Part shown: positions 44,344 through 64,000 of the stretch, in pieces
How the letters are laid out: each line of letters opens with the position of its first letter
Position numbering within the stretch: position 1 is the stretch's first letter
Assembly: GCA_028278645.1 (NCBI GenBank)
Contig: JANQDZ010000010.1
Coordinates: 1 to 64,000 of the forward strand
Origin: Longimicrobiales bacterium
GTDB lineage: Bacteria; Gemmatimonadota; Gemmatimonadetes; Longimicrobiales; Gaopeijiaceae
Reading direction: 5' to 3'
Length of the DNA: 64,000 bases
Translations under genes and position numbers: made by a program
Notes under the pieces: model-generated
What the model saw: only the letters and a program-made list of their open reading frames with translations
Database searches by the model: none
Told to the model about the DNA's origin: nothing

Positions 44344-44432
44344 GGGTATGGTAACCACACCGCTGCGGTTGGTGGATTAGCGAAAAGGTCCGCTAAACGG
44401 GCCAAGGTGTGGCTCGGCCTTCAGATCATCCC

Positions 44433-44476
44433 GAAAAGAACGCCCGTCGGTGCCAACTGGCGCTGGCGGGCTTTTC
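44433..44476. repeat. Repeat hairpin element, copy 1 (terminator-like)
   Basis: A 44-base imperfect palindrome (outer arms GAAAA and TTTTC, inner GCCCG and CGGGC, core GTGCCAACTGGCGC) matching 47423-47466 at 37 of 44 positions. The paired bases of the GCCCG/CGGGC stem remain pairable in both copies although the sequence differs. On the plus strand it ends in CTTTTC, so it can terminate the S9 peptidase transcript. Confidence 0.75.
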
Positions 44477-44528
44477 GTGGGTATCGTTGAAGAGACCAAC
44501 CACCCTCACCTGGAAGAGGCATGCCCGC

Positions 44529-49714: not shown

Positions 49715-49900
49715 GGATGCATCATCCTTCCACCAGCTCCATCGCCAGGCCCGATGGCGCCATCCCGGATGCAGACGACAGCGCCTTGAGGTGACTCCCA
49801 GCCACCACTATTCTTGGGCCGTTCCGTCAACTCCGAACCGACACACCGGTGGAGGGAAGCCCGGGCCGGACGGCCGTTCAAAATGCGAACAGGAGATCAA

Positions 49901-50773
49901 GTGGAAACCGAGCAAATCAAGGTCCTGCTGGTAGACGACGACCAGGGTGATTTCGAGATGATCCGCGTCATGCTGGCCAAGGCGGAGCACCAGGAATATG
50001 CACTGGAATGGGTCTCGAGCTACGAAGAGGCAATGGACGCGTTTGATGCCGCCGAGCACGACGTCTACTTCCTGGACTATTTCCTGGAGGACCGGACCGG
50101 CCTGGATCTGCTGAGAGAAGCCCGGGGGCGAGGGATCACGTCTCCCATCATCATGCTCACCGGCCGGGGAAGCCGAAAAGTGGACATGGAGGCCATGGAG
50201 CTCGGAGCGTCAGACTACCTGGTGAAGGGCCTCATCGATCCCGACGCCCTGGAGAGAGCCATAAGGCATGCCCTCGAGAGAGCCGAAGGCGCCCAGGCGG
50301 TTAGGGAGAAACGGGAACGCGAGATGGGGGCTCCCGCGGGGAAAACCGCATCCGCCGGCCCACCAGCGAGCGGCCCCGTGGCGGCGGGACCTGCTCCGAA
50401 CGACCGGGTCGGGGACGCCGCACGATTCCAGGCGATCTTTCAGGCCACCCGGTCGGGTGTAGCGCTCATAGACCTGGAAGGTCGGATTCATGATGTGAAC
50501 CCGTCCTTCGCAGGGTTGTTCTCCCCCGCCCTCCGATGGACCGAGGGGATCTCCTTTGTGGAGCTCCTGAACGAGAGTGACAAAGAGCCGGTCGCCAAGG
50601 AGCTGGAAGCTCTAGCCAACGGGGAAGCTGGGCGGTTCGAAGCCGCGCGCCGGTTCATGACGAAAGACGGTGAGGTGTTCTGGACCCACACGACGATGGC
50701 CCTCATCAGAAACGATGAAGGCCACCCGGACCAGGTCCTGGTAGTGGTGGAAAAGGCGGAAGTGGCCGGCTGA
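49901..50773 (+). CDS. Response regulator with receiver and PAS domains
   Basis: 290 residues. Receiver (about 5-125): LLVDDDQGDFEMI, phospho-acceptor in YFLDYFLEDRTG, then MLTGRGSRKVDMEAMELGASDYLVKG. A charged, Ala/Pro-rich linker (about 135-170) leads to a PAS domain (about 172-285; GVALIDLEGRIHDVNPSFAGLF). No kinase, HTH or cyclase output is present, so it probably acts through protein contacts. GTG 49901 is chosen for GGAG 5 bases upstream; ATG 49883 lacks one. Convergent with the polysaccharide export gene. Confidence 0.85.
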   Translation: METEQIKVLLVDDDQGDFEMIRVMLAKAEHQEYALEWVSSYEEAMDAFDAAEHDVYFLDYFLEDRTGLDLLREARGRGITSPIIMLTGRGSRKVDMEAMELGASDYLVKGLIDPDALERAIRHALERAEGAQAVREKREREMGAPAGKTASAGPPASGPVAAGPAPNDRVGDAARFQAIFQATRSGVALIDLEGRIHDVNPSFAGLFSPALRWTEGISFVELLNESDKEPVAKELEALANGEAGRFEAARRFMTKDGEVFWTHTTMALIRNDEGHPDQVLVVVEKAEVAG

Positions 50774-50795
50774 AGTAGGCCCAACAGGAGGGTTT

Positions 50796-51578
50796 CTACC
50801 AGCCCCCGTAAATACGGAAACCGAGCACGAGGACGCTTACGGCGCCGATCCCCCAGGTAACCAATCGCCTGATGGTGAATATCCTTTCGGGAACGTTGAT
50901 TTCGTCCCCGGGGCGCAGCCCCAACTGGTCGAAGGTTGTGCCCTCCGCAATCGCGGTTTGAATCTCCTCTCCACTGTAGAGCAGGAACCCATCTCTCTGA
51001 ACCTTGATAGCGTCCATCCTGGACTCAGCGCCGGGGCCGCCGGCGGCCATGATGGCCTCTCCGATTGGTAATCCAGCTGGGAAGGTATAGAACCCAGGTC
51101 GGCCGATTCGGCCGGCCATCGTGAGACGGATGGTGGGAAAAGCCCTGACTATCGGGTCACGAATGTACCGCGACAACTGTTCGGCCAGATGGTCGTTCAG
51201 TTCGGACCGAAGCACCCCCTCCAGGGACACGGTCCCCACGTTCGGAATCAAGACCGAGGGGCCTGTCTCAACCACGAGAGTGTCCGGAAAAGCGTCCTCC
51301 CCCTCCACAAAAAAGACAATCTGATCCCCCACTCGAAAGTCTCCCTCACGGAGGCGGTTCTGGATCTGTTCAATCGCATCGAGGGCCTTTTCCCGCTCAC
51401 GCTCCTTTACACCCAAGGAGTCGGCTAAGGCTTGGTGCCAAGCGAGACTCTCCTCGAGTTCGGCTCGGGTTACAAGCGGCAGCGCACGGCCGACACTCAT
51501 CCAATCGACTTCCGTTTGGGCTTCAGCCCCGGGAAGGGAGAGGGCAAGAAGGGCAACTGATAAGATGATGCTTCTCAT
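50796..51578 (-). CDS. Polysaccharide export protein with SLBB domain (Wza-like)
   Basis: 260 residues. A signal peptide ends near LSLPGAEAQ. A helical segment and a polysaccharide-export domain follow (about 85-170; FRVGDQIVFFVEG, IPNVGTVSLEGVLRSELNDHLAEQL), then a soluble-ligand-binding beta-grasp block (MAGRIGRPGFYTFPAGLPIGEAIMAAGG). A C-terminal hydrophobic helix (about 237-258) replaces the usual Wza tail, and there is no lipobox. Probably the outer-membrane or periplasmic conduit for exopolysaccharide. ATG 51578 follows GGGAAAAA. A sigma-54-type promoter lies about 100 bases upstream. Confidence 0.87.
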   Translation of the reverse strand: MRSIILSVALLALSLPGAEAQTEVDWMSVGRALPLVTRAELEESLAWHQALADSLGVKEREREKALDAIEQIQNRLREGDFRVGDQIVFFVEGEDAFPDTLVVETGPSVLIPNVGTVSLEGVLRSELNDHLAEQLSRYIRDPIVRAFPTIRLTMAGRIGRPGFYTFPAGLPIGEAIMAAGGPGAESRMDAIKVQRDGFLLYSGEEIQTAIAEGTTFDQLGLRPGDEINVPERIFTIRRLVTWGIGAVSVLVLGFRIYGGW

Positions 51579-51949
51579 TTTTTCCCATGCCTGACGGGTG
51601 GAAGTTGGGCGGTTCGGCCGTTCCCGCGGGTCACTGAACCTACGTTTGTCAACGATCGAACCCCGCTGAGACAAATGCAAGGGTTAAGCCGGTTTCCACC
51701 CCGGGACCCGCACCTTCTTCAGGCTTGCGAAACCCAGGCGGCGAAATCATCATCTGGGAAGCCTTTTCTCCGGCCTGTCACCGGGATTGGCGGCTCGCCG
51801 CTGCGTTCTGTTGCAGGGCTGATACAAGGTTCGCCGGATCGGGGCTAGGGGCCTTCGGAATTTCACCCCCACCAGAACCCCGGAAGGGAAGCACAATTCT
51901 TGCCGTCTTTGACGTTTCACGTGATTCTGTCGACTGTCCGGAGTGAATA
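51579..51949. other. Divergent intergenic region, export gene versus receiver-GGDEF gene
   Basis: 371 bases without a gene. It carries the minus-strand sigma-54-type element at 51676-51691 for the export gene. I found no correctly spaced sigma-54 element on the plus strand for the gene at 51950. Confidence 0.55.
51676..51691 (-). promoter_or_regulatory. Sigma-54 (-24/-12) promoter of the export gene
   Basis: On the minus strand CGGCTTAACCCTTGCA has GG and GC at exactly the required 10-base spacing and a full TTGCA -12 box (consensus TGGCACG-N4-TTGCW). The expected start is near 51665, giving a leader of about 85 bases. Confidence 0.75.
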
Positions 51950-52840
51950 GTGACGACCCCAACTGTGTTGGTGATTGAAGACCAGGAATGGACCGCCCGC
52001 TCTATCGAGAGCATCCTCCGGCCCGCCAATTTTGCAGTCTTCAAGGCCTATACCGGGAACCAGGGGCTGGAGGTTGCAAGCAAGGTCGCACCCGACCTGG
52101 TTCTGGTGGATCTCCACTTGCCAGACATGAGCGGATCGGACGTAATCCGACAACTCAGAGACGTACGCACCATTGGAGACGTCACCCCGATAGCCGTAAT
52201 CACCAGTGGTCAAGTCACCCAGTCAGAGAAGCTGGCCCTCCTTCGGATCGGTGCCTGGGAAGTGTTCACTTCCCCGTTCCCTCCTGAGGAGCTGTCACTG
52301 AGGGTGAGCACGTGGGTCAAGGCAAAAAAGGAAACCGACCGAGCAAGAGAAAAAAGCCTGGTCGATGAAAACACGGGGGCCTACAACTTCGAGGGGCTCA
52401 CCAGACGAGTACATGAGATCGTGGCGGAATCCCTCCGTTACGAGCGCCCCCTGACCTGCATCGTGCTTGGACGCCCGAACGCTACCGAGAAAACCAATGG
52501 CAACCGCCACAAAGACAACGACGTCGACCTGAAGGTTGTTCGGGCCCTGATGGACGTGTGCCGAACCTCGGATGCGGTGGGGCTGGTGCGAGACAGGGAG
52601 TTCCTGGTGGTTGCACCCAACACGGACAGTTCCGGTGCAGGGGTCCTGGCGAACCGGATCATGGCCGCTCTGGAAGGATCGGTCTCAGAAGCCGATATCA
52701 AGGCAGGTGTTTTCTCGGTGACCCGATCTCATCGCGAGCCCCTGGACTTCACGGACCTCATCGGGCCGGCCACTGCCGCCCTCCGGAAAGCTCAGGCCGG
52801 CCAGGACAGGATTTCCTTCCAGGAACCGGAAATGAACTAG
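51950..52840 (+). CDS. Response regulator with receiver and degenerate GGDEF domain
   Basis: 296 residues. Receiver about 5-122 (VLVIEDQEWTARSIE, LVDLHLPDMSG). The C-terminal half has the GGDEF-domain fold (DENTGAYNFEGLTRRVHEIV... opening), but the active-site GGDEF is replaced by RDREF, so diguanylate cyclase activity is unlikely. It may instead bind a nucleotide or dimerise. GTG 51950 follows GGAGTGAATA. It sits between export and kinase genes, so it may tune exopolysaccharide export. Confidence 0.82.
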   Translation: MTTPTVLVIEDQEWTARSIESILRPANFAVFKAYTGNQGLEVASKVAPDLVLVDLHLPDMSGSDVIRQLRDVRTIGDVTPIAVITSGQVTQSEKLALLRIGAWEVFTSPFPPEELSLRVSTWVKAKKETDRAREKSLVDENTGAYNFEGLTRRVHEIVAESLRYERPLTCIVLGRPNATEKTNGNRHKDNDVDLKVVRALMDVCRTSDAVGLVRDREFLVVAPNTDSSGAGVLANRIMAALEGSVSEADIKAGVFSVTRSHREPLDFTDLIGPATAALRKAQAGQDRISFQEPEMN

Positions 52841-52856
52841 GTCGTTCGGGAACCGG

Positions 52857-55259
52857 CTAGCTGCCCACCTCCTCCACCACTTCATCCACTACCTCATCCA
52901 ACTCTTCGGCAGCTTCATAGCCGGGGAGATACCTGGAGTAGTACTTGTAGTAACCCTGACCGATCTGAGGGATGAAGTCATTCAGAACCGCCCCGAGAAT
53001 CCTCACCGGCAAGCGGAGGAATGACTCCATCTGGACTGTGGCCAGGTCTTTGTTGGTACTCCCGGACCTGAGAACCATCAGGACGTTCCCTGCATGGGCC
53101 CCGATGACGAACGCGTCACTTCCGGCCGCCAGCGGAGGTGAATCGAGAATGATCACCTCATACCTCCGCTTCAAGCCCGCAAGGAGAGCCTGCATGCGGG
53201 AAGAATTCAGGAGCTCCGGCGAGGAGGAAGACCTGGAGCCAAAACCCACGAAATGGAGTTTGGGGTTTTCGGTCTCCTGCACCACCTGTGCATTCGCGCC
53301 GTTCATCAGGAAGTCTGTGAGGCCGGGCTTTCGGTTCCTCTCCAGGATGTGATGCAGATCCCCCCTTCTCGTATCCCCGTCCAAGAGGATGGTTTTTCGC
53401 CCGAGGTCCGCGAAGGCAGTAGCGAGGTTGGCCGACACGAAGGTTTTCCCCTCACCCTCCGACGGACTCGTGACCGACAAAACCAGGGGTCGGGCAGCCC
53501 CGATGGCGAAATCGACTTTCATCCGCAGGTCTCTGAAGGCCTCACGTATCTCCTCGGAGTTGTCACGCCCTCGCGCCGAGCGTCGGTACCTGGGGATCGT
53601 GGCCAGCCAGTCGAGCCCGATATCACCACCGATCTCGGCAGGGTCCCTGAGGCGCGGATCGAGTCGGTCCAGGAGAACGATCAGCAAGACGCCAACGCCC
53701 AGCGGAATGAGAAAAACCATCCCCGCGAAGCCCAGCCGATCGTCGGAGCTCGGCCTGCGAGGGGGGACCGGTTCGTCGAAGACCATCACATCCGGGATAC
53801 TGCTGGCAGCAGCGAGGCGGGCCGTCTCGTATCGGCGCTCCACATTGATATAAAGATCGTTGGCTATCTGGTAATCCCTCTGCCGCCGGCCTTCCTCAAT
53901 CGCTCGAGGGGGGATCTCCATAAGTTCCTCACCCCGTGATCCGATGAGGGCCGCGAGATCGTCTTCCTGATTTTGGAGTTCCTCGAGGAGGATTCTCGTG
54001 AGGGACGGGATTGTTACGGTTTTGAGGTTTTCTTCCCTCCGAACCAGGTCAACCACCGGACCCCATTCGTCCGTGTAGGTCTCGCGGAGGGTCCGCAAAT
54101 CAGCTTTGACCGAGGTCAACTCATTGAGCACCCCGACCAAAGGGCTGGACCCTTGGACCGACTGGATCATCTGGTAGCTCTCTACCCTCACGTCACCGGA
54201 GAGGGTCTGTTCCAGCGCCGCTTCGAGGCGGCGACGATCCGACTGGAGGGCGTCCTGCCTCATCCTGAGGTTGAAGAACTCGCCTAAAACCGTTCCCGTC
54301 GTCTGCTGGAGACCCGGAACGATTGGTGAGGCCTCTTCCGACGGAAGGGTGATGGTTGCGATCTGATACCCTTCCAAGTCGGCCTCGGCCTGCACCAGCT
54401 TGGCCTCCGCCGTATCCAGCTGTTCCCGGAGGAGGACGGTCAGCTCATCGAGTTTCCTTCTCTTGAGTTCGGCGGCCACCTCCACAAGCCGGTCCATCAG
54501 GGAGGTCAACACACTGGCCACTCGGACCGGGTCTCTCCCCTCCAGCTGCAGACGAAGGAAATTCCCGTCCCGATCCAGACGCGGAATGACTCGACGGGCC
54601 AAGCCGCGAGCGGCTTCCCGTGGCGTCGTGACCGAAAAGGTCAGATCTGCCTCCGGCGAGTAGGCCACCACGGGAGGAGCCCAAGAAAACCCCAGCGATA
54701 CGCCGATGGAGTCTCCTGCCTCCCCCTCTTCCAACACCATCCCCTCTTCATCAAAGAGTGTATAGCCAGCCGCGTCAGCGGAGGTCGTGAGCTGGTACGT
54801 TCCGGGATCGAACGCGTCAGCCAGGGAAAAATCCTGAAAAAATAGAGAATCCTGTGGAGGGGAGGAGAGGTATAGGCGTTCCTGGAGCACCACCGGATCG
54901 AGGACCTGGAAGGAGGTGAGCAACTCCTCCCAGGCCGTGGACTCCAGAAGCTCCCCTTGAGTGATGGGGCCGGGGAGATCCCCCTGGCGGGTATCGGTGG
55001 TAATCCAGATCGATCCCTGGGCCCTATACTCAACGGTACCCATCCGGAATGCTATGGTGGCAGCACCCACACCCGCAGCGACCGACAGGACCATCACCCA
55101 CCAGTACCGTTTGAAAGCCGGAAGAATCCATTTCAGAGAGAAGCCCAGCCCCTCATCCATGTCTCGGGATGAAAAGGCGGATTCGTGTGGGTAGTATTCG
55201 AACTCCTCCTGAGGAGCAGGGGAGTCCGGCCCACGCTGTGTGGGGAGGTTCTCGCTCAT
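52857..55259 (-). CDS. Wzc-type polysaccharide co-polymerase and tyrosine autokinase
   Basis: 800 residues. Wzz-like domain with first helix near 55-75, a long coiled-coil periplasmic region, second helix near 515-535, then a cytoplasmic BY-kinase: Walker A SPSEGEGKT near 600, Walker A' ILLDGDTRRGD, Walker B VIILDSPPL, and a tyrosine cluster near 768-782 (GYYKYYSRYLPGY). This single-chain architecture controls chain length and export with the Wza-like partner through cycles of autophosphorylation. A sigma-54-type element lies 67 bases upstream of the start. Confidence 0.93.
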   Translation of the reverse strand: MSENLPTQRGPDSPAPQEEFEYYPHESAFSSRDMDEGLGFSLKWILPAFKRYWWVMVLSVAAGVGAATIAFRMGTVEYRAQGSIWITTDTRQGDLPGPITQGELLESTAWEELLTSFQVLDPVVLQERLYLSSPPQDSLFFQDFSLADAFDPGTYQLTTSADAAGYTLFDEEGMVLEEGEAGDSIGVSLGFSWAPPVVAYSPEADLTFSVTTPREAARGLARRVIPRLDRDGNFLRLQLEGRDPVRVASVLTSLMDRLVEVAAELKRRKLDELTVLLREQLDTAEAKLVQAEADLEGYQIATITLPSEEASPIVPGLQQTTGTVLGEFFNLRMRQDALQSDRRRLEAALEQTLSGDVRVESYQMIQSVQGSSPLVGVLNELTSVKADLRTLRETYTDEWGPVVDLVRREENLKTVTIPSLTRILLEELQNQEDDLAALIGSRGEELMEIPPRAIEEGRRQRDYQIANDLYINVERRYETARLAAASSIPDVMVFDEPVPPRRPSSDDRLGFAGMVFLIPLGVGVLLIVLLDRLDPRLRDPAEIGGDIGLDWLATIPRYRRSARGRDNSEEIREAFRDLRMKVDFAIGAARPLVLSVTSPSEGEGKTFVSANLATAFADLGRKTILLDGDTRRGDLHHILERNRKPGLTDFLMNGANAQVVQETENPKLHFVGFGSRSSSSPELLNSSRMQALLAGLKRRYEVIILDSPPLAAGSDAFVIGAHAGNVLMVLRSGSTNKDLATVQMESFLRLPVRILGAVLNDFIPQIGQGYYKYYSRYLPGYEAAEELDEVVDEVVEEVGS

Positions 55260-55304
55260 CCGGTTGTTCTCTCAACAATTAAAGGAATCTGAACGACCTG
55301 GAGT

Positions 55305-55320
55305 CCAAACAGTTGTTTGG
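55305..55320. promoter_or_regulatory. Dyad CCAAACAGTTGTTTGG
   Basis: Seven-base perfect arms around GT, overlapping the expected transcription start of the kinase gene. It shares the core AAACAGYTGTT with the dyad at 55562-55571. Binding protein unknown; the adjacent NtrC-type regulator is one candidate. Confidence 0.5.
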
Positions 55321-55325
55321 TACCT

Positions 55326-55341
55326 AGCAGCCACGGTGCCA
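55326..55341 (-). promoter_or_regulatory. Sigma-54 (-24/-12) promoter of the tyrosine kinase gene
   Basis: On the minus strand TGGCACCGTGGCTGCT matches the consensus TGGCACG-N4-TTGCW at 10 of 12 defined positions, with GG and GC correctly spaced. The expected start is near 55314, 55 bases before the ATG. Confidence 0.8.
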
Positions 55342-55539
55342 GTTCCATTCCAGCCGGTCCAAATCGGTTTACACCGCCACAAAAACAAATATTACCGCCT
55401 TCCAGCAGGAACAAAAGCCTTTCGGTTCGGGTGACCTTCGACCCCCAACTTCCTACTTGCCCGTGGCGCGGATCCATCACTCCAGGCATTTGGTGTTGCT
55501 GGAGCACCACAAAACCCTTGCAGAAACCAGATGGGAGTT

Positions 55540-55555
55540 GGAAATTTAAATTTCC
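55540..55555. promoter_or_regulatory. 16-bp perfect palindrome upstream of the activator gene
   Basis: GGAAATTTAAATTTCC is a perfect AT-rich palindrome 38 bases before the activator start. Its position suits autoregulation or an enhancer for the divergent promoter about 200 bases away. Confidence 0.5.
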
Positions 55556-55561
55556 CCTGTA

Positions 55562-55571
55562 AACAGCTGTT
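55562..55571. promoter_or_regulatory. 10-bp palindrome AACAGCTGTT
   Basis: Perfect palindrome 22 bases upstream of the activator start, related to the core of the dyad at 55305-55320. Confidence 0.4.
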
Positions 55572-55592
55572 CGTGCCTCTTCGAGGACTTGA

Positions 55593-57149
55593 ATGTCGAT
55601 CACAGAAAGAGACGGGCCCGGCTCTCCAGAAACAGTTCGGGCCCGACCGAGTCAGGAACCCAGCGGCCCCTTGACCCTCCCTGAAGAAGCAAAGGCGACG
55701 GTCGAAGTCCTCGTGATTGACGACGAGTTTTCCCTTCGCGAGAGCTGCGCTTCCCTCCTGCGAGCCGAGGGTTACCCGGTAACCCTTTGCGGACGCGGGG
55801 ACGATGCCATCGACCTCGTGAAAAAGAGACATTACGACATCGTTTTGGTGGACCTCTTCATGAGCCAGGTGGGGGGAATGGAGATCCTGGCGTTTACCAG
55901 GGAACAATCTCCGGCCTCCCTCGTCATCCTGATGACCGGCAACCCCTCCGTCGAGAGTAGTCTCGAAGGCCTCAGGGCCGGGGCTTGGGATTATCTGCCG
56001 AAACCCTTCTCTGCGACCCAACTCCAGGTCTTGATCGGACGGGCGGCACACGCCGTCACGGTGGCCCGGGAGAGCGGCGTGGAGGTGGGCCGAGCCGAAA
56101 AGGAAGCCGACCCGGTTCCAGAGGTAGGTGGCAGGAAAATCTTGGGTGAATCCCTGGCAATGACAGAGGTGGTCCAGCTGGCCTCGAAGGTTGCCGGCAC
56201 GGATGCTTCTGTTTTTCTGACCGGAGAGAGTGGGACGGGAAAAGAGCTCCTGGCCCACTTTATTCACGACAACAGCCGGAGGAACTCCCGGAGCCTGGTG
56301 CCCGTGAACTGCGCGGCGCTGCCTGAGCCGCTCCTCGAGTCTGAGATGTTCGGCCACACGGAAGGAGCCTTCACGGGAGCCACCAAGGCAAAGCCAGGGT
56401 TGTTGGAGGTCGCCCACGGTGGGACCCTCTTCCTGGACGAGCTCTCTGATATGCCCCTCTCCGTCCAGGCGAAGATCCTCCGTGTGATTCAAGATGGCGT
56501 GGTCCGGAGGGTTGGGAGCACAAAGGTTGATGCCGTCGTAAACGTCCGCTTCATCGCAGCCACCAATGTCGATCCTCTCGAGGCTGTGAAGGAGGGCACG
56601 CTGAGGCGGGATCTCCACTACCGGCTACGGGTCGTTCCGATTCATATCCCACCCCTGAGGGAGCGCCGGGAGGACATCCCCGTACTGGCGGAGAGTTTCC
56701 TCTCTGAGTTCTGGTTAAATCACCGTGGATCTGCCGGAGACATGCCGACTTTCTCTGCCCCGGCCATGACCGCACTCCAGGGTTGGCCCTGGAGAGGAAA
56801 CGTCCGTGAGCTGAGGAACGTCATTGAACATCTCGTGGTGCTGGCCGATCCGGATTCGGAGATCTTCCCGGAGGCCATCCCGTTCATCCACGAGGACATG
56901 GACGACTCCCCTGGTGTGGGAACCGGGCTGGCCTTGGACAGAGCCGTTCTGAATGCCGACTACCATGCGGCACGGGAGATGGTCCTCGCCCAGTTCGAGG
57001 TTGAATACCTGGAACACATTGTCAGGGAAGCCAACGGGAACATTTCCGACGCGGCGAGGCTCGCCGGAGTGGACAGGACTACACTCTACCGGATGATGGA
57101 ACGACATGGGACGTCCCGGGACGCCCTTCTGTCGGGTTTACGGCAATGA
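55593..57149 (+). CDS. NtrC-family sigma-54-dependent response regulator
   Basis: 518 residues. Receiver about 38-155 (LVIDDEFSLRESCASLL; phospho-Asp near 86 in LVDLFM), then the AAA+ domain with Walker A GESGTGKE near 211, the sigma-54 contact loop GAFTGA near 258 and Walker B GTLFLDEL. A Fis-type HTH lies at the C-terminus (ISDAARLAGVDRTTLYRMMERHG). It therefore activates sigma-54 promoters from upstream sites. It overlaps its histidine kinase gene by ATGA. Three sigma-54 elements nearby make the exopolysaccharide genes its probable targets. Comparable to PrsR of PEP-CTERM systems (inference). Confidence 0.93.
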   Translation: MSITERDGPGSPETVRARPSQEPSGPLTLPEEAKATVEVLVIDDEFSLRESCASLLRAEGYPVTLCGRGDDAIDLVKKRHYDIVLVDLFMSQVGGMEILAFTREQSPASLVILMTGNPSVESSLEGLRAGAWDYLPKPFSATQLQVLIGRAAHAVTVARESGVEVGRAEKEADPVPEVGGRKILGESLAMTEVVQLASKVAGTDASVFLTGESGTGKELLAHFIHDNSRRNSRSLVPVNCAALPEPLLESEMFGHTEGAFTGATKAKPGLLEVAHGGTLFLDELSDMPLSVQAKILRVIQDGVVRRVGSTKVDAVVNVRFIAATNVDPLEAVKEGTLRRDLHYRLRVVPIHIPPLRERREDIPVLAESFLSEFWLNHRGSAGDMPTFSAPAMTALQGWPWRGNVRELRNVIEHLVVLADPDSEIFPEAIPFIHEDMDDSPGVGTGLALDRAVLNADYHAAREMVLAQFEVEYLEHIVREANGNISDAARLAGVDRTTLYRMMERHGTSRDALLSGLRQ

Positions 57150-58285
57150 ATCCTTCTTCCGAAGCCCCCGAGCCGTGGACGGCACCCTTCCCAGTCCGGG
57201 ATCAAAGCCAGATAGCGGAGGTGCCGTCCATCCTGTCCAGAGCGGCCGATGCTTTTTCGGACGCCTGGCCGGAGGACTCCCCGTACCGAACACGGGAAGA
57301 GATCACCAAACGGCTCCAGACCATTCTTCGTGCCACCGGGTTCGAACGCAGAGAGGACTGGTCTGCTGACATTTCCGAGGAACTCACGAAGGACCGGACC
57401 CTGGTAGGGAGGCTCGTCAGGGCTCTCAGAATGGAAGTGCTCGAAGAATCCGAGAAAGCTCGGTCAGAGGAATCGGCTGCTGCCTATCTGAAAGCCCTCC
57501 AAGACCTGGAGAAGGTCAGGCGGTCGACCCTTCCGAGGGAGGCACAGGAGTTTGCCTCCCGGCTCACCGATCCGGACGGCTTCGAGCTCTTGGTCGAAGT
57601 AGCCCATGACCTGCGCTCACCTCTTACATCGATCACCTTCATGGCGGAAACCCTTCGGGCTGGGTACAGCGGAGAACTCACCGATCTTCAGAAAGACCAA
57701 CTCAGCTTGATCTGGAGCGCTGCGTTCGGGATGATGTCGGTGTTCTCCGACCTGATGGACCTCGCAAAGGATCGGGCGAACATGTTTGAGGATTCCCCGG
57801 GTCCTTTTTCCATCAGCGGGCTTTTCGAAGAACTTCGACAGATGGTTGAGCCGATGGTGGTAGTAAAAGGGATCGACCTCCGACTCACCCCTCCGCTTCA
57901 TGAGAAAGTGACGGGTCACCGCTTGGCCCTCCTCCGAGTGCTCCTGAACTTGACGACCAACGCCATCAAGTTCACCGAGGAGGGATTTGTGGAGGTCACC
58001 GCCAAGAGCCTCGACCGTGACCTTGTGGAATTCTCGGTGCGCGACAGTGGCAGGGCCATCGCTCCGGAAGCGCAGGAAACGCTCTTCGAACCTTTTAAGA
58101 AATCCAGGGATCGGCGAGGATACTTCTTCTCGGGTAGCGGCCTTGGGCTGAGCATCGCCCGTCGGTATCTGAGAGCGCTGGACTCCGACCTGACCTTTGA
58201 AACCAAACCTGGCTGGGGGACAAGGTTCCACTTCGAACTCAAGCTGGCCCCGGCCCTGGAAGGAGGATGGACGAATACCGAATAG
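57146..58285 (+). CDS. Cytoplasmic sensor histidine kinase, partner of the sigma-54 activator
   Basis: 379 residues without membrane helices. An N-terminal helical region of unknown fold (about 1-145) is followed by a HisKA domain with phospho-acceptor His near 154 in AHDLRSP and a HATPase domain (N box LLNLTTNAIKF, G2 box GSGLGLSIARR). The G1 box reads DSGRAIA where DxGxGI is usual, so nucleotide binding may be altered. Translational coupling to the activator gene indicates a cognate pair. With no sensor helices it probably reads an internal signal or works through partners. Confidence 0.9.
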   Translation: MNPSSEAPEPWTAPFPVRDQSQIAEVPSILSRAADAFSDAWPEDSPYRTREEITKRLQTILRATGFERREDWSADISEELTKDRTLVGRLVRALRMEVLEESEKARSEESAAAYLKALQDLEKVRRSTLPREAQEFASRLTDPDGFELLVEVAHDLRSPLTSITFMAETLRAGYSGELTDLQKDQLSLIWSAAFGMMSVFSDLMDLAKDRANMFEDSPGPFSISGLFEELRQMVEPMVVVKGIDLRLTPPLHEKVTGHRLALLRVLLNLTTNAIKFTEEGFVEVTAKSLDRDLVEFSVRDSGRAIAPEAQETLFEPFKKSRDRRGYFFSGSGLGLSIARRYLRALDSDLTFETKPGWGTRFHFELKLAPALEGGWTNTE

Positions 58286-58292
58286 TCGAGTT

Positions 58293-58312
58293 CGCCCCGC
58301 TCGAGTAGGGCG
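58293..58312. repeat. Inverted repeat upstream of the sugar transferase promoter
   Basis: Arms CGCCC (58293-58297) and GGGCG (58308-58312), 30 bases upstream of the sigma-54 element. Could be an activator site or a weak terminator of the kinase gene. Confidence 0.3.
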
Positions 58313-58342
58313 GGACAACCCGGCGGGGTGTGGAGAAGAGGA

Positions 58343-58358
58343 GGGCGCGGCTGTTGCT
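58343..58358 (+). promoter_or_regulatory. Sigma-54 (-24/-12) promoter of the sugar transferase
   Basis: GGGCGCGGCTGTTGCT fits TGGCACG-N4-TTGCW at 10 of 12 defined positions, with a full TTGCT -12 box and correct spacing. The expected start is near 58370, leaving a leader of about 175 bases before the gene. Confidence 0.78.
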
Positions 58359-58546
58359 GAATGACGACATTCGTGGACTCCCCGCCCCAAAGTAACAAAT
58401 TTCACGGATCCCTTGCCGTCCCTTAAGTTAGGGCCCCCATTATCTTTAGGGGCACAAGGAAGTCGCTCGGAGAACGAGAACAAGCCTTGCATTGGGGAAC
58501 GACCAACGACCAGTCGTTTATCGACCCAACGAAGTGAGATTAGATC

Positions 58547-59353
58547 TTGGAGCCATCAACCCCACCAGCGCTGGGCATGAAGGTCAAGGGAAACCTCGGC
58601 CGTAATCTCATGTCCCCCATCATGCGGTGGACCGAGCAACCCGTTTTCAGGGACCCGGAATTCGCTGACCCGAACCGGTCCTCCTGGGTGCAGGACGCTG
58701 CCGGTAAAGCCCGGCGCGCCCTGAATGTCGGCGTTGCGTTTGTTTCCCTCTTGCTGCTTCTCCCACTCTTCCTGATCGTTGCGATTGCGGTGAAGCTCTC
58801 TTCTCCGGGACCGGTGTTCTACAGCCAAGAGAGAGTGGGTCTCAATCGGCGCCGCCGGAATCGGGACAGGAGAAGAAGGAACAGAGCCGGGACCGACCGA
58901 CGAGGAGCCTGTGCGGGCGGACGGGTTTTTCGGATGTACAAGTTCAGGACTATGTATGTGAATTCCGAAGACTCGGGGCAGGTGTGGGCAAAGAAAGACG
59001 ATCCGAGGGTAACTCCGGTGGGACGGGTGCTGAGGGCCTTCCGGTTTGACGAGCTCCCCCAACTCTGGAACGTGCTCCGAGGGGACATGAACATTGTCGG
59101 GCCTCGCCCTGAACAACCGGAGATCTTCCGAGAACTCCGAGGCGAGATCTCCGACTACCCGCAACGACAACGGGTACTCCCCGGCATCACGGGCCTCGCC
59201 CAGATCAACAACGGGTACGATCAAACCTTCAAGGACGTTCAGCGCAAGCTTGGGTACGACCTAGAGTACGTGCACAACTGCTCACCCGCTGAAGATTTTA
59301 AGATCATGGCAAAAACGGTTCCGGTCGTCCTGGGCCGGAAAGGGTACCACTAG
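58547..59353 (+). CDS. Polyprenyl-phosphate phosphoglycosyl transferase (initiating sugar transferase)
   Basis: 268 residues. One membrane hairpin (about 58-85) precedes the catalytic domain: KLSSPGPVFYSQERVGLNRR, MYKFRTM, FRFDELPQLWNVLRGDMNIVGPRPEQP and PGITGLAQI. It loads the first sugar phosphate onto undecaprenyl phosphate at the inner membrane. An Arg-rich insert (about 104-125) interrupts the usual loop before MYKFRTM. TTG 58547 and ATG 58577 are both possible starts; neither has a strong ribosome site. Driven by the sigma-54 element at 58343. Confidence 0.92.
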   Translation: MEPSTPPALGMKVKGNLGRNLMSPIMRWTEQPVFRDPEFADPNRSSWVQDAAGKARRALNVGVAFVSLLLLLPLFLIVAIAVKLSSPGPVFYSQERVGLNRRRRNRDRRRRNRAGTDRRGACAGGRVFRMYKFRTMYVNSEDSGQVWAKKDDPRVTPVGRVLRAFRFDELPQLWNVLRGDMNIVGPRPEQPEIFRELRGEISDYPQRQRVLPGITGLAQINNGYDQTFKDVQRKLGYDLEYVHNCSPAEDFKIMAKTVPVVLGRKGYH

Positions 59354-59368
59354 AAGGCTCGTTGTCGA

Positions 59369-60430
59369 TCAATCCCGGTCAAAATTGGTCAGGTACCAGG
59401 GGAGCCCGGATTCAAATCCGGGCCCTTTTCCTTTAATGACCATCACCGGACTCGATCCCCTCTGAATAAACCCTGCCCGACGCAGCGGCTTCTCGAAGGA
59501 CCTGGGGCATGAGATCTCAACCGATATGGAATCACACCCGGCCTGCTTAGCCTTCCTTGAGCAGCCTCTCAGAAGCGCCTCGAAGATATCCGGGCGTGGC
59601 CCCGCGAATATATCGAGGATCAGTGCCTTACCCTCATCCAAACCCCAAACGGCATAGCCCGCCACCTTTCCCGTCTTAGGAGATTCAGCCACGAGAACCT
59701 TCACAGGCACCCTCCTCGGGCCACGGAGGAACCGCCAGCGGAGGGTTTCACCCGACCGGACCGCGATCAGAGACCGCCCGCCCTCGGAGGAAGCCCACAA
59801 CTCATCGAACCGCTCGTCGAAGTCTGCCACCTCCGCCCATCGAAGGTTCCGTAGAGCCCTGGCAGATCCTCTGATCCCCATCAAAGAGATGAGCGGATCC
59901 GTAACGAGAGAAAGGGCCGCCGCCAGGCCCTTCGGCAGCCTCTCCCTCAGCAGGTGCTTCGAGCGGAGGACCTTCGCGAACCTCCGGATCTCGAGAGTCG
60001 GCTCCACCCCCGCCCGCTTGAAGACTCCCAAAGCAGTCTTATTCGGGAATCCGTAGAGAAAGGCCACAGAGGCTTTGGCACTCGAAATACTCTCCTTGAG
60101 CAGGCTCAACGCAGGCCCGAGAGATCGATGGCCAGGCTTCACGACGAAGTCCGCCATGATCGCGCCCGTGGCTACTCCCTCCCCAACGCCGAACGCACGG
60201 CGTCCAAAACCTTTGGAGCCCACCAGGTCATCCTCCTGGGTGACCAAAACAAAAACCTCTCCCGCGCCATCGGGGTTCTCTCGGTAGAGCCATTCCAGCT
60301 TCTTTGCCCCAGCCTCCCCTGCTAGCCCGTCCAGACCGTCCGCCCACAGCTGGAGGATCGCAGGAGCGTCCTCGCTCAGCTTCGCCTTTCGGACCCGATA
60401 CGGTGTTCCGGATACGGTCTTAACGTCCAC
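59369..60430 (-). CDS. GNAT-family acetyltransferase-like protein
   Basis: 353 residues. The N-terminal half has a GNAT fold: YRVRKAKLSEDAPAILQLW opening, ADFVVKPGHRSLGPALSLLKESI (acetyl-CoA-binding region) and FLYGFPNKTALGVFKRAGV. The C-terminal half resembles a second degenerate GNAT lobe. It may acylate a sugar or amino-sugar of the polymer. Start GTG 60430 lies 3 bases after the NadE-like stop, so both are in one transcript. The 3' end of the gene contains a terminator for the convergent sugar transferase. Confidence 0.75.
   Translation of the reverse strand: MDVKTVSGTPYRVRKAKLSEDAPAILQLWADGLDGLAGEAGAKKLEWLYRENPDGAGEVFVLVTQEDDLVGSKGFGRRAFGVGEGVATGAIMADFVVKPGHRSLGPALSLLKESISSAKASVAFLYGFPNKTALGVFKRAGVEPTLEIRRFAKVLRSKHLLRERLPKGLAAALSLVTDPLISLMGIRGSARALRNLRWAEVADFDERFDELWASSEGGRSLIAVRSGETLRWRFLRGPRRVPVKVLVAESPKTGKVAGYAVWGLDEGKALILDIFAGPRPDIFEALLRGCSRKAKQAGCDSISVEISCPRSFEKPLRRAGFIQRGSSPVMVIKGKGPGFESGLPWYLTNFDRD
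59404..59430 (+). terminator. Terminator of the sugar transferase, inside the convergent gene
   Basis: Perfect arms GCCCGGATT (59404-59412) and AATCCGGGC (59415-59423), followed by CCTTTTC. The hairpin lies within the last codons of the GNAT gene on the other strand. Confidence 0.8.
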
Positions 60431-60433
60431 GGA

Positions 60434-61441
60434 TCACCCTGGGCTTGTGATGGGTCCCTCCACGGAGTCGAGAAGGAGGCCCGACCAATGAAGGGGAGCG
60501 GTGGTGCGTCTCTTTTGCTCGATGGAGGAGTAGACCAGACCCGCCCTTGTTTCATCGATCCCTAGGGCTTCTGCGAGGGCGGAGATCGGTCTCCCCTGGT
60601 TGAAGAAAAGGAGGGCGAGGTCCATTTCCCAGTATGGCAGACCGAAGTAGAACTCGTCCTGACTCTGGGGCAGGCTGTACGTATCCGTCGTCGGGGTCGC
60701 TCCGCAAATCTCCTCTGGAACCCCGAGGTGGCGGGCAAGCATGTAGACCTGAGACTTGTAAAGGTGGGCGATCGGTTTGATATCCGCCGATCCATCACCG
60801 TTTTTGACAAAAAAACCTTGGTCGAACTCCACTCGATTCGGCGTCCCGAGGACAGCGTAATTAAGACGATCCGCGTGTGCGTATTCCAGGGTTTTCCGCA
60901 CCCGCTGTTTGAAGTTCGTGCCTGCGAGAACCTCCAGGTATTCCTCCAATCTCAAGCGTTCCCGGGTCTCGTTCCCTTCCGGGTCCTGTGCCACGACCAG
61001 AAAATGGGTGTATGGGTCGGTCAACCCTCCGGAAATGACGAGCTTGCTCTTCCAATTGGGGCCATATTCCGGAATGACCTTCTTGATCGCGGCGTCCCGC
61101 CACCGGTAACAGCCGATGGCCTCGAGGATTGGAGAAATGTCCTCGACCTTCGTAGGGATCCCCAACTGATTCGCCAGTGTTTGTGCCCGTTCTTCGCCCG
61201 AAGGCGCGGACTCGGTTTCGCTGAGAATCAGGCCAAGGACCTTATCCGGGCCAACGGCCCGGCTTCCCAAGGCTGCGGCAACCGAACTGTCCACCCCACC
61301 GGACAGCCCCACCACCAACCCCCGCTTTCGGAGTCGGACCCGGAGGTGGTCCTGAATCCCCGTGGAAATCCGTTCCACCTCCTCAGCCATGTCGAAAGAG
61401 AACAGGCTCTCCAGGGTCTTCTCGAGTCGATCAGGAATCAT
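60434..61441 (-). CDS. nadE: NadE-like ammonia-dependent amide ligase
   Basis: 335 residues. It has the PP-loop SGGVDSS near 46 and NadE-type blocks GTPNRVEFDQGFFVKNGDGSADIKPI and LYKSQVYMLARHLGVP. NadE forms NAD from deamido-NAD, ATP and ammonia. No glutaminase domain is fused. The location inside an exopolysaccharide island, next to an asparagine-synthase-like gene and co-transcribed with a GNAT gene, raises the possibility that it amidates a sugar acid instead (inference). ATG 61441 follows GGTGAAGA. Confidence 0.85.
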   Translation of the reverse strand: MIPDRLEKTLESLFSFDMAEEVERISTGIQDHLRVRLRKRGLVVGLSGGVDSSVAAALGSRAVGPDKVLGLILSETESAPSGEERAQTLANQLGIPTKVEDISPILEAIGCYRWRDAAIKKVIPEYGPNWKSKLVISGGLTDPYTHFLVVAQDPEGNETRERLRLEEYLEVLAGTNFKQRVRKTLEYAHADRLNYAVLGTPNRVEFDQGFFVKNGDGSADIKPIAHLYKSQVYMLARHLGVPEEICGATPTTDTYSLPQSQDEFYFGLPYWEMDLALLFFNQGRPISALAEALGIDETRAGLVYSSIEQKRRTTAPLHWSGLLLDSVEGPITSPG

Positions 61442-61652
61442 TCTTCACCGCCGAAAGGACGTTGGTTGGACACAGGGCCACCATTGAAGCGACCGGGACC
61501 GGTGCCCTGAGACCATTCTACTGGGACATCTGGCCTTTGGGTACAAGCCCCACTACTTCCCGGTTTCTATGATCTCATCGTACCTTTGATACTGGCTTGC
61601 CGTGGCTCCGTGAGCGTTCCCTGACCCAGGCTCATCAAAAGAGGAAACCCAA

Positions 61653-63650
61653 GTGTGCGGAATCGCTGGGATCGTGAACCTCCAAAGTGACATGAGCCCG
61701 CCCTCCCGTGATTCCCTCAGCCGTATGGTTTCCGCGATCCGTCACCGTGGCCCGGATCAGGCCGGGATCTTCCGCGACAGACGGGCGGGTCTGGTGGCAG
61801 CCAGGCTCTCGATCATCGATCTGGAACACGGCCAGCAGCCCCTCTCCAACGAAGACGGTACCCTCTGGGTGGTGTTCAACGGAGAGATCTTCAACTACGT
61901 GGAACTCCGGGCCCAGCTAGTCCAACGGGGACACACCTTCCGCACGTCGTCCGACACCGAGGTCATCGTCCACGCTTGGGAGGAGTGGGGTAAGGACTCA
62001 CTGGGAATGTTCAACGGACAATGGTCGTTTGCAATCTGGGACTCCGAAAAGTCCGAATTGATCCTTTCCAGAGATGGAATGGGAATCCTCCCCCTTTATT
62101 ATGCCGAGAAAGGGTCCCGGGTAGTATTCGCCAGTGAGGTAAAGGCCCTTTTTGCGGGTGATCCGTCTCTCCGTCGGGGATTAGACCCCCTGGGCCTTCT
62201 GCAGACATTCACGTTTTGGTCCTCTTTGTCTCCCACCACCGTCTTCGATGGAGTTTCCGAACTTCCCCCGGGTTCGTATCGGATCTACCGGAGGGGCGAG
62301 GTCGGCGAGGGTCGTCATTGGGACTGGACCTTCCCCGTGGACGGGGGCGGTGAGTTCCAAGGGGCGGAGAGCGGAGGGGTGGAGGAGCTGGAGGAGGAGC
62401 TTTTGAGGGCCACTTCGCTGCGAATGCTCCGGTCCGACGTTCCGGTGGGTTGTTATTTGTCGGGGGGGCTGGACAGCTCCCTGGTGACAAGCCTGGCCAT
62501 CGAAGCCAAAGAGGCTTCGTGCCAGACGTTCTCGATCAGGTTCGAAGAGGACGAGTTCGACGAGGCGTCCTTCCAGCAGACCCTGGTGAAGACTCTTGAC
62601 GTAGATCACCACGAGGTTCGGGTTTCGGGACGGGATATTTGCGGGGTCTTTCCCGAGGTGATTCGTCACGCAGAGCGGCCCGTACTCCGGACTGCTCCCG
62701 CTCCTCTCTTTCTCCTTTCAAGGCTGGCTCGAGATGCCGGCGTGAAAGTAGTCCTCACCGGTGAAGGCGCTGATGAGATCTTCGCAGGGTACGATCTCTT
62801 CCGAGAGGGTATCTTGCGTCGGCGATGGGCTCAGGAACCGGATTCCGATGGGCTTCCCGAGCTCTTCAGCCGTCTGTACCCATACCTCTCCCGCTCTCCA
62901 GTATCCCAACGGTCCATGGCTCGTCAGTTCTTCGGGCAGGGTCTCGAACGTTGGCAGGAACCCGGATTCGCCCACAGCCTCCGCTGGAAGACCACGGGAG
63001 CCCTGCGAAAGCTGTTCTCCCGAGACCTACTCCTTGACCTCGCCGATCAAGACACCGTTGGGGATTTCCGCGCCGAACTTCCCCCGTCGTTCTCGCGATG
63101 GGAGTACTTGGCCCAGGACCAATACATCGAAGCGGTTACCCTGCTACCTGGATACATCCTCTCCTCCCAAGGAGACCGGATGCTGATGGCCCATTCGGTA
63201 GAGGGGCGGTTTCCCTTCCTGGACAAACAGGTGGTTCAGCTGGCCAACTCCTTCCCCGGGGATTTCAAGATCCGAGACATGGAGGAGAAACGTATACTTC
63301 GTTTGATTGCTGCTGCCAGGGTCCCGGCGTCGATCCTGGAACGCCCGAAACAACCCTACCGGGCTCCAGGAGCCGTCTCTTTTGTTTCCGAGGACCGGGG
63401 TGAATGGGTGGATGAGGTCCTCTCCCCTGAAGAGGTCCGGGGGGCCGGAATCTTCAATCCAGAGTTGGTCTCACTCCTTTGGGAGAAGTGCCTTTCAGGT
63501 ACCCACAGCCGACCGCTTTCAAACACGGACGACATGGCTCTGGTCGGCGTGGCCTCCACGCAGTTGCTCGTAAGGGAGTTCTTTTCCTACCCCTCCCTTA
63601 CCCATCCCGAGATGCACTTCTCAGTAAGTGTGGATAGGGTGGACGGATGA
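61653..63650 (+). CDS. asnB: Asparagine synthase-like glutamine amidotransferase
   Basis: 665 residues. The class II glutaminase domain (about 1-215) keeps the nucleophile Cys2 (MCGIAG) and RHRGPDQ. The synthetase domain has the PP-loop SGGLDSS near 269 and LTGEGADEIFAGYD. AsnB amidates aspartate with glutamine nitrogen and ATP; homologues in polysaccharide and exosortase loci probably amidate other carboxylates. GTG 61653 has GAGGAAA upstream and exposes Cys2 correctly. Its stop overlaps the start of the acyl-ligase gene (ATGA). Confidence 0.93.
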   Translation: MCGIAGIVNLQSDMSPPSRDSLSRMVSAIRHRGPDQAGIFRDRRAGLVAARLSIIDLEHGQQPLSNEDGTLWVVFNGEIFNYVELRAQLVQRGHTFRTSSDTEVIVHAWEEWGKDSLGMFNGQWSFAIWDSEKSELILSRDGMGILPLYYAEKGSRVVFASEVKALFAGDPSLRRGLDPLGLLQTFTFWSSLSPTTVFDGVSELPPGSYRIYRRGEVGEGRHWDWTFPVDGGGEFQGAESGGVEELEEELLRATSLRMLRSDVPVGCYLSGGLDSSLVTSLAIEAKEASCQTFSIRFEEDEFDEASFQQTLVKTLDVDHHEVRVSGRDICGVFPEVIRHAERPVLRTAPAPLFLLSRLARDAGVKVVLTGEGADEIFAGYDLFREGILRRRWAQEPDSDGLPELFSRLYPYLSRSPVSQRSMARQFFGQGLERWQEPGFAHSLRWKTTGALRKLFSRDLLLDLADQDTVGDFRAELPPSFSRWEYLAQDQYIEAVTLLPGYILSSQGDRMLMAHSVEGRFPFLDKQVVQLANSFPGDFKIRDMEEKRILRLIAAARVPASILERPKQPYRAPGAVSFVSEDRGEWVDEVLSPEEVRGAGIFNPELVSLLWEKCLSGTHSRPLSNTDDMALVGVASTQLLVREFFSYPSLTHPEMHFSVSVDRVDG

Positions 63651-64000
63651 GTCGAGACTCTGAACCAAAAACCGGCCTCCGGCGATACCTCGAAAGAGTA
63701 GCCGACACGCTCCCCGAAAAAGAGGCCGTCGTAACCCAGGAAGGGAGAGTCACTTATGGTCAACTCGAGAAAGACGGGAACGCCGTAGCGAACTGGCTGA
63801 AGCAGGGTGGGGTGAGGAACGGAGACCGGGTCTTTGTTTTTGGGTCGAACTCTGCCCAGGCTGTGGCAGCATTCTGGGGAGTTCAGAAGGCGGGTGGGGT
63901 GGTGTCGGTCATCCACCCACAGACCAAGGGAAGTAAACTCGCTTTTCTGCTCGGAGATTCCTCGCCGAAGGCCCTTGTGATGGAATCCCACCTGTTCCCG
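63647..64000 (+). CDS. AMP-dependent acyl-CoA ligase/synthetase (partial, runs off window)
   Basis: The first 118 residues are visible, from ATG 63647, which overlaps the asnB stop. The sequence has the N-terminal AMP-binding pattern: EAVVTQEGRVTYGQLEKD, GVRNGDRVFVFGSNS, AAFWGVQKAGGVVSVIHP. The core AMP motifs lie beyond the edge. Acyl ligases of this kind accompany AsnB-like genes in exosortase A loci, which fits, but the substrate is unknown. Confidence 0.82.
   Translation, partial: MSRDSEPKTGLRRYLERVADTLPEKEAVVTQEGRVTYGQLEKDGNAVANWLKQGGVRNGDRVFVFGSNSAQAVAAFWGVQKAGGVVSVIHPQTKGSKLAFLLGDSSPKALVMESHLFP

Follow-up and report, generated by a model that had tools for sequence, protein, structure and literature searches.

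The exopolysaccharide genes lying towards the end of a 64,000-nucleotide stretch of DNA from a Longimicrobiales bacterium are best read as a dedicated sigma-54 regulon over an exopolysaccharide cassette of the Gemmatimonadota, a reading to which we give a probability of about 0.8. The whole stretch analysed, hereafter the window, belongs to contig C99, of whose 73,866 bases it covers the greater part; the draft genome comprises 4.91 Mb in 103 contigs. The cassette comprises genes for an export protein (wza), a receiver protein with a degenerate GGDEF-like domain, a chain-length protein (wzc), an NtrC-type activator (ntrC), a histidine kinase and a sugar transferase. The genome carries one rpoN gene (E 3.4e-64), wzc is preceded by a conserved -24/-12 element, a shared dyad, TGTTGC-N6-GCAACA, recurs in the three intergenic regions concerned, and before the transferase gene the distance from this dyad to a second element falls in a narrow range. 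An initial annotation had proposed a dedicated sigma-54/NtrC circuit here and named rpoN as a gene to look for; rpoN, the wzc promoter and the dyad, present in all three regions and in relatives, lend the proposal support, whereas the third of its -24/-12 sites has given way to a conserved promoter-like element about 118 nt from the dyad centre.

From the sequence we infer a direction of control in which the histidine kinase, for which no membrane span is predicted, would transfer phosphate to the NtrC-type product of the same operon. The activator has the AAA+ domain and the GAFTGA loop that a sigma-54 enhancer-binding protein requires; it would bind the TGTTGC-N6-GCAACA dyads in the three intergenic regions, and by its GAFTGA loop and ATPase it would bring sigma-54 polymerase to the open state at three genes, namely wzc, wza and that of the sugar transferase. 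In this way chain-length control, export and chain initiation would be switched on jointly, probably along with the gene for the receiver protein with the degenerate GGDEF. A little-cultured phylum would gain a defined and testable exopolysaccharide regulon, consisting of one activator, an 18-bp operator and three or four promoters and extending class-wide; the operator would also enable regulon prediction in many metagenome genomes.

The features of the region are listed below with the evidence for each.

49883..50773, + strand: receiver-PAS protein (Pfam, gene maps)
50796..51578, - strand: Wza-type polysaccharide export protein, Poly_export and SLBB (Pfam); start set at 51578 because a signal-peptide-like sequence follows in the translation
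51676..51691, - strand: canonical-form -24/-12 element CGGCTTAACCCTTGCA before wza, 98 nt from the start (rank 2 in the window)
51809..51826, no strand: dyad, putative enhancer, in the wza-receiver gap; 2 mismatches to TGTTG-N8-CAACA (rank 5, relatives-only matrix)
51889..51904, + strand: variant -24/-12-like element AAGCACAATTCTTGCC before the receiver gene (CA-N7-TGC conservation)
51950..52840, + strand: receiver protein with a degenerate GGDEF-like domain (profile matches, alignment)
52857..55259, - strand: Wzc-type chain-length protein and tyrosine autokinase (profile matches)
55326..55341, - strand: sigma-54 -24/-12 element TGGCACCGTGGCTGCT of wzc, 67 nt from the start (rank 1 in the window, conserved)
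55494..55511, no strand: dyad, putative enhancer, in the wzc-ntrC gap; 1 mismatch (rank 1, relatives-only matrix)
55593..57149, + strand: NtrC-type activator with receiver, sigma-54 activation domain with GAFTGA and Fis-type helix-turn-helix (Pfam, translation)
57146..58285, + strand: histidine kinase without predicted membrane span (Pfam, hydropathy, orthologues)
58352..58369, no strand: dyad, putative enhancer, before the sugar transferase, overlapping the string GGGCGCGGCTGTTGCT at 58343-58358 (rank 2, relatives-only matrix)
58476..58491, + strand: variant -24/-12-like element GAGAACAAGCCTTGCA, likely the transferase promoter (distance to the dyad in relatives)
58547..59353, + strand: Bac_transf sugar transferase, chain initiation, start codon uncertain (profile matches)

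The cassette and the promoter of wzc

By its gene content and order the set is a conserved Gemmatimonadota exopolysaccharide cassette. A kinase match at E<=1e-30 is found in 39 of 98 genomes, the bacterium's own included. The loci of relatives were collected by similarity search, taking the best 80 matches of a longer list: among the first 53 (L093-L145), 50 carry in their titles Gemmatimonadota, Gemmatimonadetes or the name of a lower Gemmatimonad taxon; the later ones come mostly from other phyla with low identity. Mapping covered 85 loci (L061-L145), of which 83 were counted after removal of 2 duplicates; the order wza (-), receiver-GGDEF (+), wzc (-), ntrC (+), histidine kinase (+) is unbroken in 31 of the 83, the other loci being cut by contig ends, arranged differently or having a member that is not detectable. 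The transferase gene follows the kinase gene in the same direction in the 21 relatives used for gap analysis (22 loci with the window).

The activator had been described as the only one of its kind; it is indeed the sole full-length sigma-54 activator within the 64 kb, but the genome as a whole has 16 full-length matches, plus 4 weak partial ones. Both receiver proteins reported in the island as having no DNA-binding output are real, as judged from profile matches. Among the loci compared, the receiver-PAS protein has a match above threshold in just two: L061, the sister species, and L086, where the match lies at another place in the locus. In the second receiver protein the GGDEF motif is lost, being present at the aligned position in none of 53 rows, window included; synthesis of cyclic diguanylate (c-di-GMP) by this protein is therefore unlikely. 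This receiver protein (51950-52840) and its orthologues are kept beside the wza gap, and it is possibly a non-catalytic partner of the kinase.

The three strings first proposed as -24/-12 promoters exist in the window, namely CGGCTTAACCCTTGCA at 51676-51691 (-), TGGCACCGTGGCTGCT at 55326-55341 (-) and GGGCGCGGCTGTTGCT at 58343-58358 (+), and they have fared differently. Counted as matches to the consensus TGGCACNNNNNTTGCW with at most 2 mismatches, such sites occur at chance level (18 versus 18.2 expected), the wza site, with 3 mismatches, lying outside the 18; genome-wide, the exact pattern gave 5 matches versus 19 in a reversed-pattern control. Since neither count discriminates, both were dropped in favour of conservation. 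A graded -24/-12 matrix, whose frequencies were not fitted to the window, was run over all positions of both strands and ranked the wzc site first, the wza site second and 58343-58358 seventh in the 64 kb.

Conservation singles out the wzc site. The 150 nt upstream of wzc were scanned in 47 loci, window included, for 21,504 gapped dyads with shuffles as expectation, and the highest z-score belonged to GG-N9-TGC, present in 39 of the 47 loci versus 9.8 expected; the same letters at gaps of 5-8 and 10-14 occurred in 5 to 12 loci, and these wrong-gap controls share the relatedness of the wzc loci. The form GG-N10-GC, taken as the mark of promoters in a sigma-54 regulon, is thus found at wzc, and the conserved GG-N9-TGC is, on this evidence, a sigma-54 signature at the site first proposed (55326-55341). 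It could be argued that GC-rich DNA produced the -24/-12 strings by chance, the island being constitutive or sigma-70 driven, as consensus matches are at chance overall and one of the three proposed sites is not a conserved promoter; however, the conservation of the wzc site and of the dyad largely contradicts this explanation, which we consider very improbable.

The dyad shared by the intergenic regions

When both divergent gaps were scanned for palindromes, the highest-ranking 3-mer dyad in each was TGT-N12-ACA: it occurs in 22 of 41 gaps between wzc and ntrC, versus 2.8 expected, and in 18 of 28 between wza and the receiver gene, versus 2.1; its consensus is the 18-bp TGTTGC-N6-GCAACA. Sites within 2 mismatches of TGTTG-N8-CAACA are present in 35/41 and 27/28 of these gaps, respectively. 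A matrix was then built on 31 sites from relatives, leaving out the window, the sister species and all transferase sites; applied to the window, it placed 55494-55511 first, 58352-58369 second and 51809-51826 fifth, ranks 3 and 4 being taken by 19615 and 52605, outside the three gaps. Of the 22 transferase gaps, 20 have a best dyad with p<=0.05 relative to shuffled sequence, and dyad density in these gaps is 13 to 16 times that of the rest of the loci.

Most simply, the dyad would be an enhancer, bound by the cassette's own activator. Alternatively, the exopolysaccharide genes could be sigma-54 dependent while the dyad is the site of another regulator or another activator, the linked pair controlling something else; the 16 full-length activators of the genome speak for this, as does the fact that the pairing of activator and dyad is read from sequence. 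However, the dyad also occurs upstream of the activator gene itself and is retained before ntrC where wzc is not found (for example in L115, L136, L137 and L145), and throughout the class the activator and kinase genes remain part of the cassette, so that this alternative appears unlikely and the assignment to the linked activator is preferred. In three loci where wzc was not detected, dyads occur in pairs between the receiver gene and ntrC (L136, 7959 and 8120; L145, 7500 and 7658; L137, 5206 and 5366), a hint of autoregulation.

Elements before the transferase, wza and receiver genes

The third proposed promoter, 58343-58358, overlaps the dyad at 58352-58369, and its TTGC is therefore the left arm of that dyad. 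Among 23 transferase gaps, that of the window alone has a GG-N9-TGC overlapping the dyad; the element is not in the sister species, and canonical GG-N9-TGC occurs in these gaps at chance (10/23 versus 10.7 in shuffles). The site was thus withdrawn as a promoter.

A MAFFT alignment of the transferase upstream regions proved too divergent to use. In 21 of 22 transferase loci an element of the form G(C/A)A(C/T)-N6-TGC is found at a distance of 105-133 nt from the centre of the dyad, with only 2 bin entries outside the two distance bins covering this range; L073 is the one miss, and L068 is counted through a GCAC element that is probably due to chance. With these two loci left out, and the judged element taken where a locus had two candidates, the 20 remaining distances cluster near 107, 117 and 129 nt, a periodicity that, searched over 10-11.5 nt, gives p = 0.0015 when compared with distances spread uniformly over the range that they span; the element of the sister species is 117 nt from its dyad. 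The transferase promoter is thus likely the variant element at 58476-58491, of a form usually without G at -25: this G is present in 2 of 21 transferase elements and a G at -26 in 18 of 21. The form GG-N10-GC is accordingly no more frequent than chance before the transferase gene, where the variant element stands instead.

The combination was also searched in 105 genomes of the order, as a dyad followed after 88-110 nt by G(A/C)ACG-N4-TTGC, giving 11 matches in 10 genomes and 2 in the reversed control. Nine of them lie before cassette genes (transferase 6, wzc 2, receiver 1), L194 and L202 being the two that do not; the pattern had itself been derived from four of the nine (L193, L196, L198, L200), and the other five (L192, L195, L197, L199, L201) lie outside that set. 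Two of these five, L192 and L195, have their match upstream of wzc, and its element there shows the canonical GG, an argument for placing the variant elements at the sigma-54 position.

The -24/-12 element of wza is present, at the same place also in the sister species, and 8 of 12 variant elements before wza in the loci compared are found 104-108 nt from the dyad. Upstream of the receiver gene the top dyad is CA-N7-TGC (41 of 53 loci versus 10.2 expected), and variant elements like those of the transferase are found there, with G at -25 in 1 of 35 matches. The longer form GCA-N7-TGC was at first taken as the operator of a regulator; because of the dyad scan and the distances, the TGTTGC dyad is now regarded as the enhancer and GCA-N7-TGC as a promoter-like element, the former view being kept as a rival. 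In its present form this rival holds that the variant elements before the transferase and receiver genes are operators of a second DNA-binding protein, only wzc and wza being sigma-54 genes; the avoidance of G at -25 before both genes favours it, and the core GCA-N7-TGC is itself a dyad. Conversely, GCACG-N4-TTGC and its spacing fit sigma-54 from -24 to -12, the distance from element to dyad varies within a narrow range, and the canonical GG occurs in the same pattern before wzc in L192 and L195; we therefore hold the operator explanation to be possible, if somewhat doubtful.

The other interpretation of these elements is that of one regulon with two forms of sigma-54 promoter, each tied to the TGTTGC-N6-GCAACA enhancer: the canonical YGG...TTGC at wzc, and one in which G-(C/T/A)-G replaces TGG, at the transferase gene, with like elements before the receiver gene and, among relatives, sometimes before wza. 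G at -25 is otherwise nearly invariant in sigma-54 promoters, and we regard the two-form interpretation as evenly poised. If it is true, avoiding this G perhaps keeps the variant promoters silent without the activator, and the variant elements would offer a clean test of the need for GG at -25/-24.

Several observations weigh against the regulon as a whole. The loci are related, so that counts over them are not independent; in 6 of the 41 gaps between wzc and ntrC a dyad with at most 2 mismatches is missing, and the distance from dyad to wzc promoter varies between about 58 nt and 200 nt or more. At wza, GG-N9-TGC is weakly conserved beyond the sister species (15/41 versus 8.6 expected), and the 28 wza gaps divide into 8 with a canonical element, counted within 50-220 nt of the dyad, 11 with a variant only and 9 with neither. 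The dyad alone is unspecific in the bacterium's own genome (109 sites with at most 1 mismatch versus 63 in the control), where there are also fifteen other full activators, and the strict dyad-plus-element pattern misses the window, whose element reads GAACA and not GAACG.

Exosortase genes, Prs systems and the neighbourhood

The window was said to lack an exosortase, which is correct for the window, but one is encoded elsewhere in the genome, on contig C82 (L024 10582-12606), with a fused EpsI-type C-terminal part and among glycosyltransferase-like and O-antigen-ligase-like genes. It scores 127.8 over the general exosortase cut-off of 105.55 and, with 172.1, stays below the XrtA cut-off of 208. 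In the 40 kb examined around it no strong dyad is found, the best scores (11.1 and 10.7) being kilobases away; the sole PEP-CTERM match of the genome is L188 (contig C35:9140-9211, 26.2 bits). An exosortase exceeds the cut-off in 14 of the 98 genomes, and 11 of these 14 carry the kinase at E<=1e-48, as 28 genomes do in all (Fisher p 3.8e-5); at E<=1e-30 the figure is 12 of 14 (p 2.2e-4). In seven relatives (G038, G043, G050, G078, G079, G081, G084) the exosortase match has the same orientation as the transferase match and starts 87-107 nt beyond it, and would therefore share the transferase promoter, which is not so in the genome of the window. The link to exosortase is closer than the window by itself could show.

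The likeness to PrsK/PrsR that had been pointed out holds in function and not in family. PrsR membership was rejected (TIGR02915, 341.1 bits versus a cut-off of 502.6), and so was that of PrsK, since none of 33 genome matches to TIGR02916 passes the cut-off of 300, the window kinase having 43.2 bits. Two XrtA-system families were below cut-off as well: the amidotransferase TIGR03108 (407.3 versus 816.9) and the ligase TIGR03098 (357.1 versus 592.35, a score for just the 413-aa ligase part beyond the window). Haft et al. 2006 (PMC1569441) described PrsK, PrsR and PrsT together with two motifs before PEP-CTERM genes, one of 17 nt with TTTACA at its end and, behind it, one of the -24/-12 type; both were reported solely in Proteobacteria. 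With that system the cassette shares an NtrC-type regulator beside a histidine kinase, the exopolysaccharide setting, an activator site followed by -24/-12 and the link to exosortase. The differences are that PrsK is a transmembrane protein, whereas no span is predicted in the cassette kinase; that the first Prs motif is the 17-nt one ending in TTTACA, whereas that of the cassette is TGTTGC-N6-GCAACA; and that the Prs targets are PEP-CTERM genes, whereas those of the cassette would be the polysaccharide machinery.

Sigma-54 has been tied to exterior functions (Francke et al. 2011, PMC3162934), and RpoN-dependent transcription of the PEP-CTERM gene pepA was shown in Aquincola (PMC9850573); both place sigma-54 over exopolysaccharide or PEP-CTERM genes, but the parts consulted contain neither a Gemmatimonadota cassette nor a TGTTGC dyad. 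In Burkholderia cenocepacia (PMC5491218) an NtrC-type activator is reported to affect exopolysaccharide synthesis, as proposed for the cassette; there, however, it is the nitrogen regulator NtrC, whereas the cassette has its own activator and its own kinase. A transcriptome paper on Gemmatimonas phototrophica (PMC11406998) mentions a PEP-CTERM protein, and of the other terms sought in it neither sigma-54 nor polysaccharide appeared; in the one library searched, no title or abstract start retrieved for Gemmatimonads with exosortase, sigma-54, rpoN or polysaccharide describes such a cassette. Taken together, the comparison suggests that the sigma-54 and NtrC-type logic of proteobacterial exosortase loci has a counterpart in Gemmatimonadota that employs different proteins and a different operator and would here act on the polysaccharide machinery itself.

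Finally, some neighbouring genes deserve mention. Behind the transferase gene, 59369-60430 (-) encodes a 353-aa protein with no Pfam or NCBIfam match at the thresholds used; the cassette is then followed by NAD synthase-like, asparagine synthase-like and acyl-CoA ligase genes (60434-63650, then from 63647 into L023 1-1242), which include the relatives of the XrtA-system amidotransferase and ligase with scores below the cut-offs given above. At 44409-47360 (+) there is a gene for a 983-aa protein resembling an adenylation module of nonribosomal peptide synthetases, with extra C-terminal sequence.

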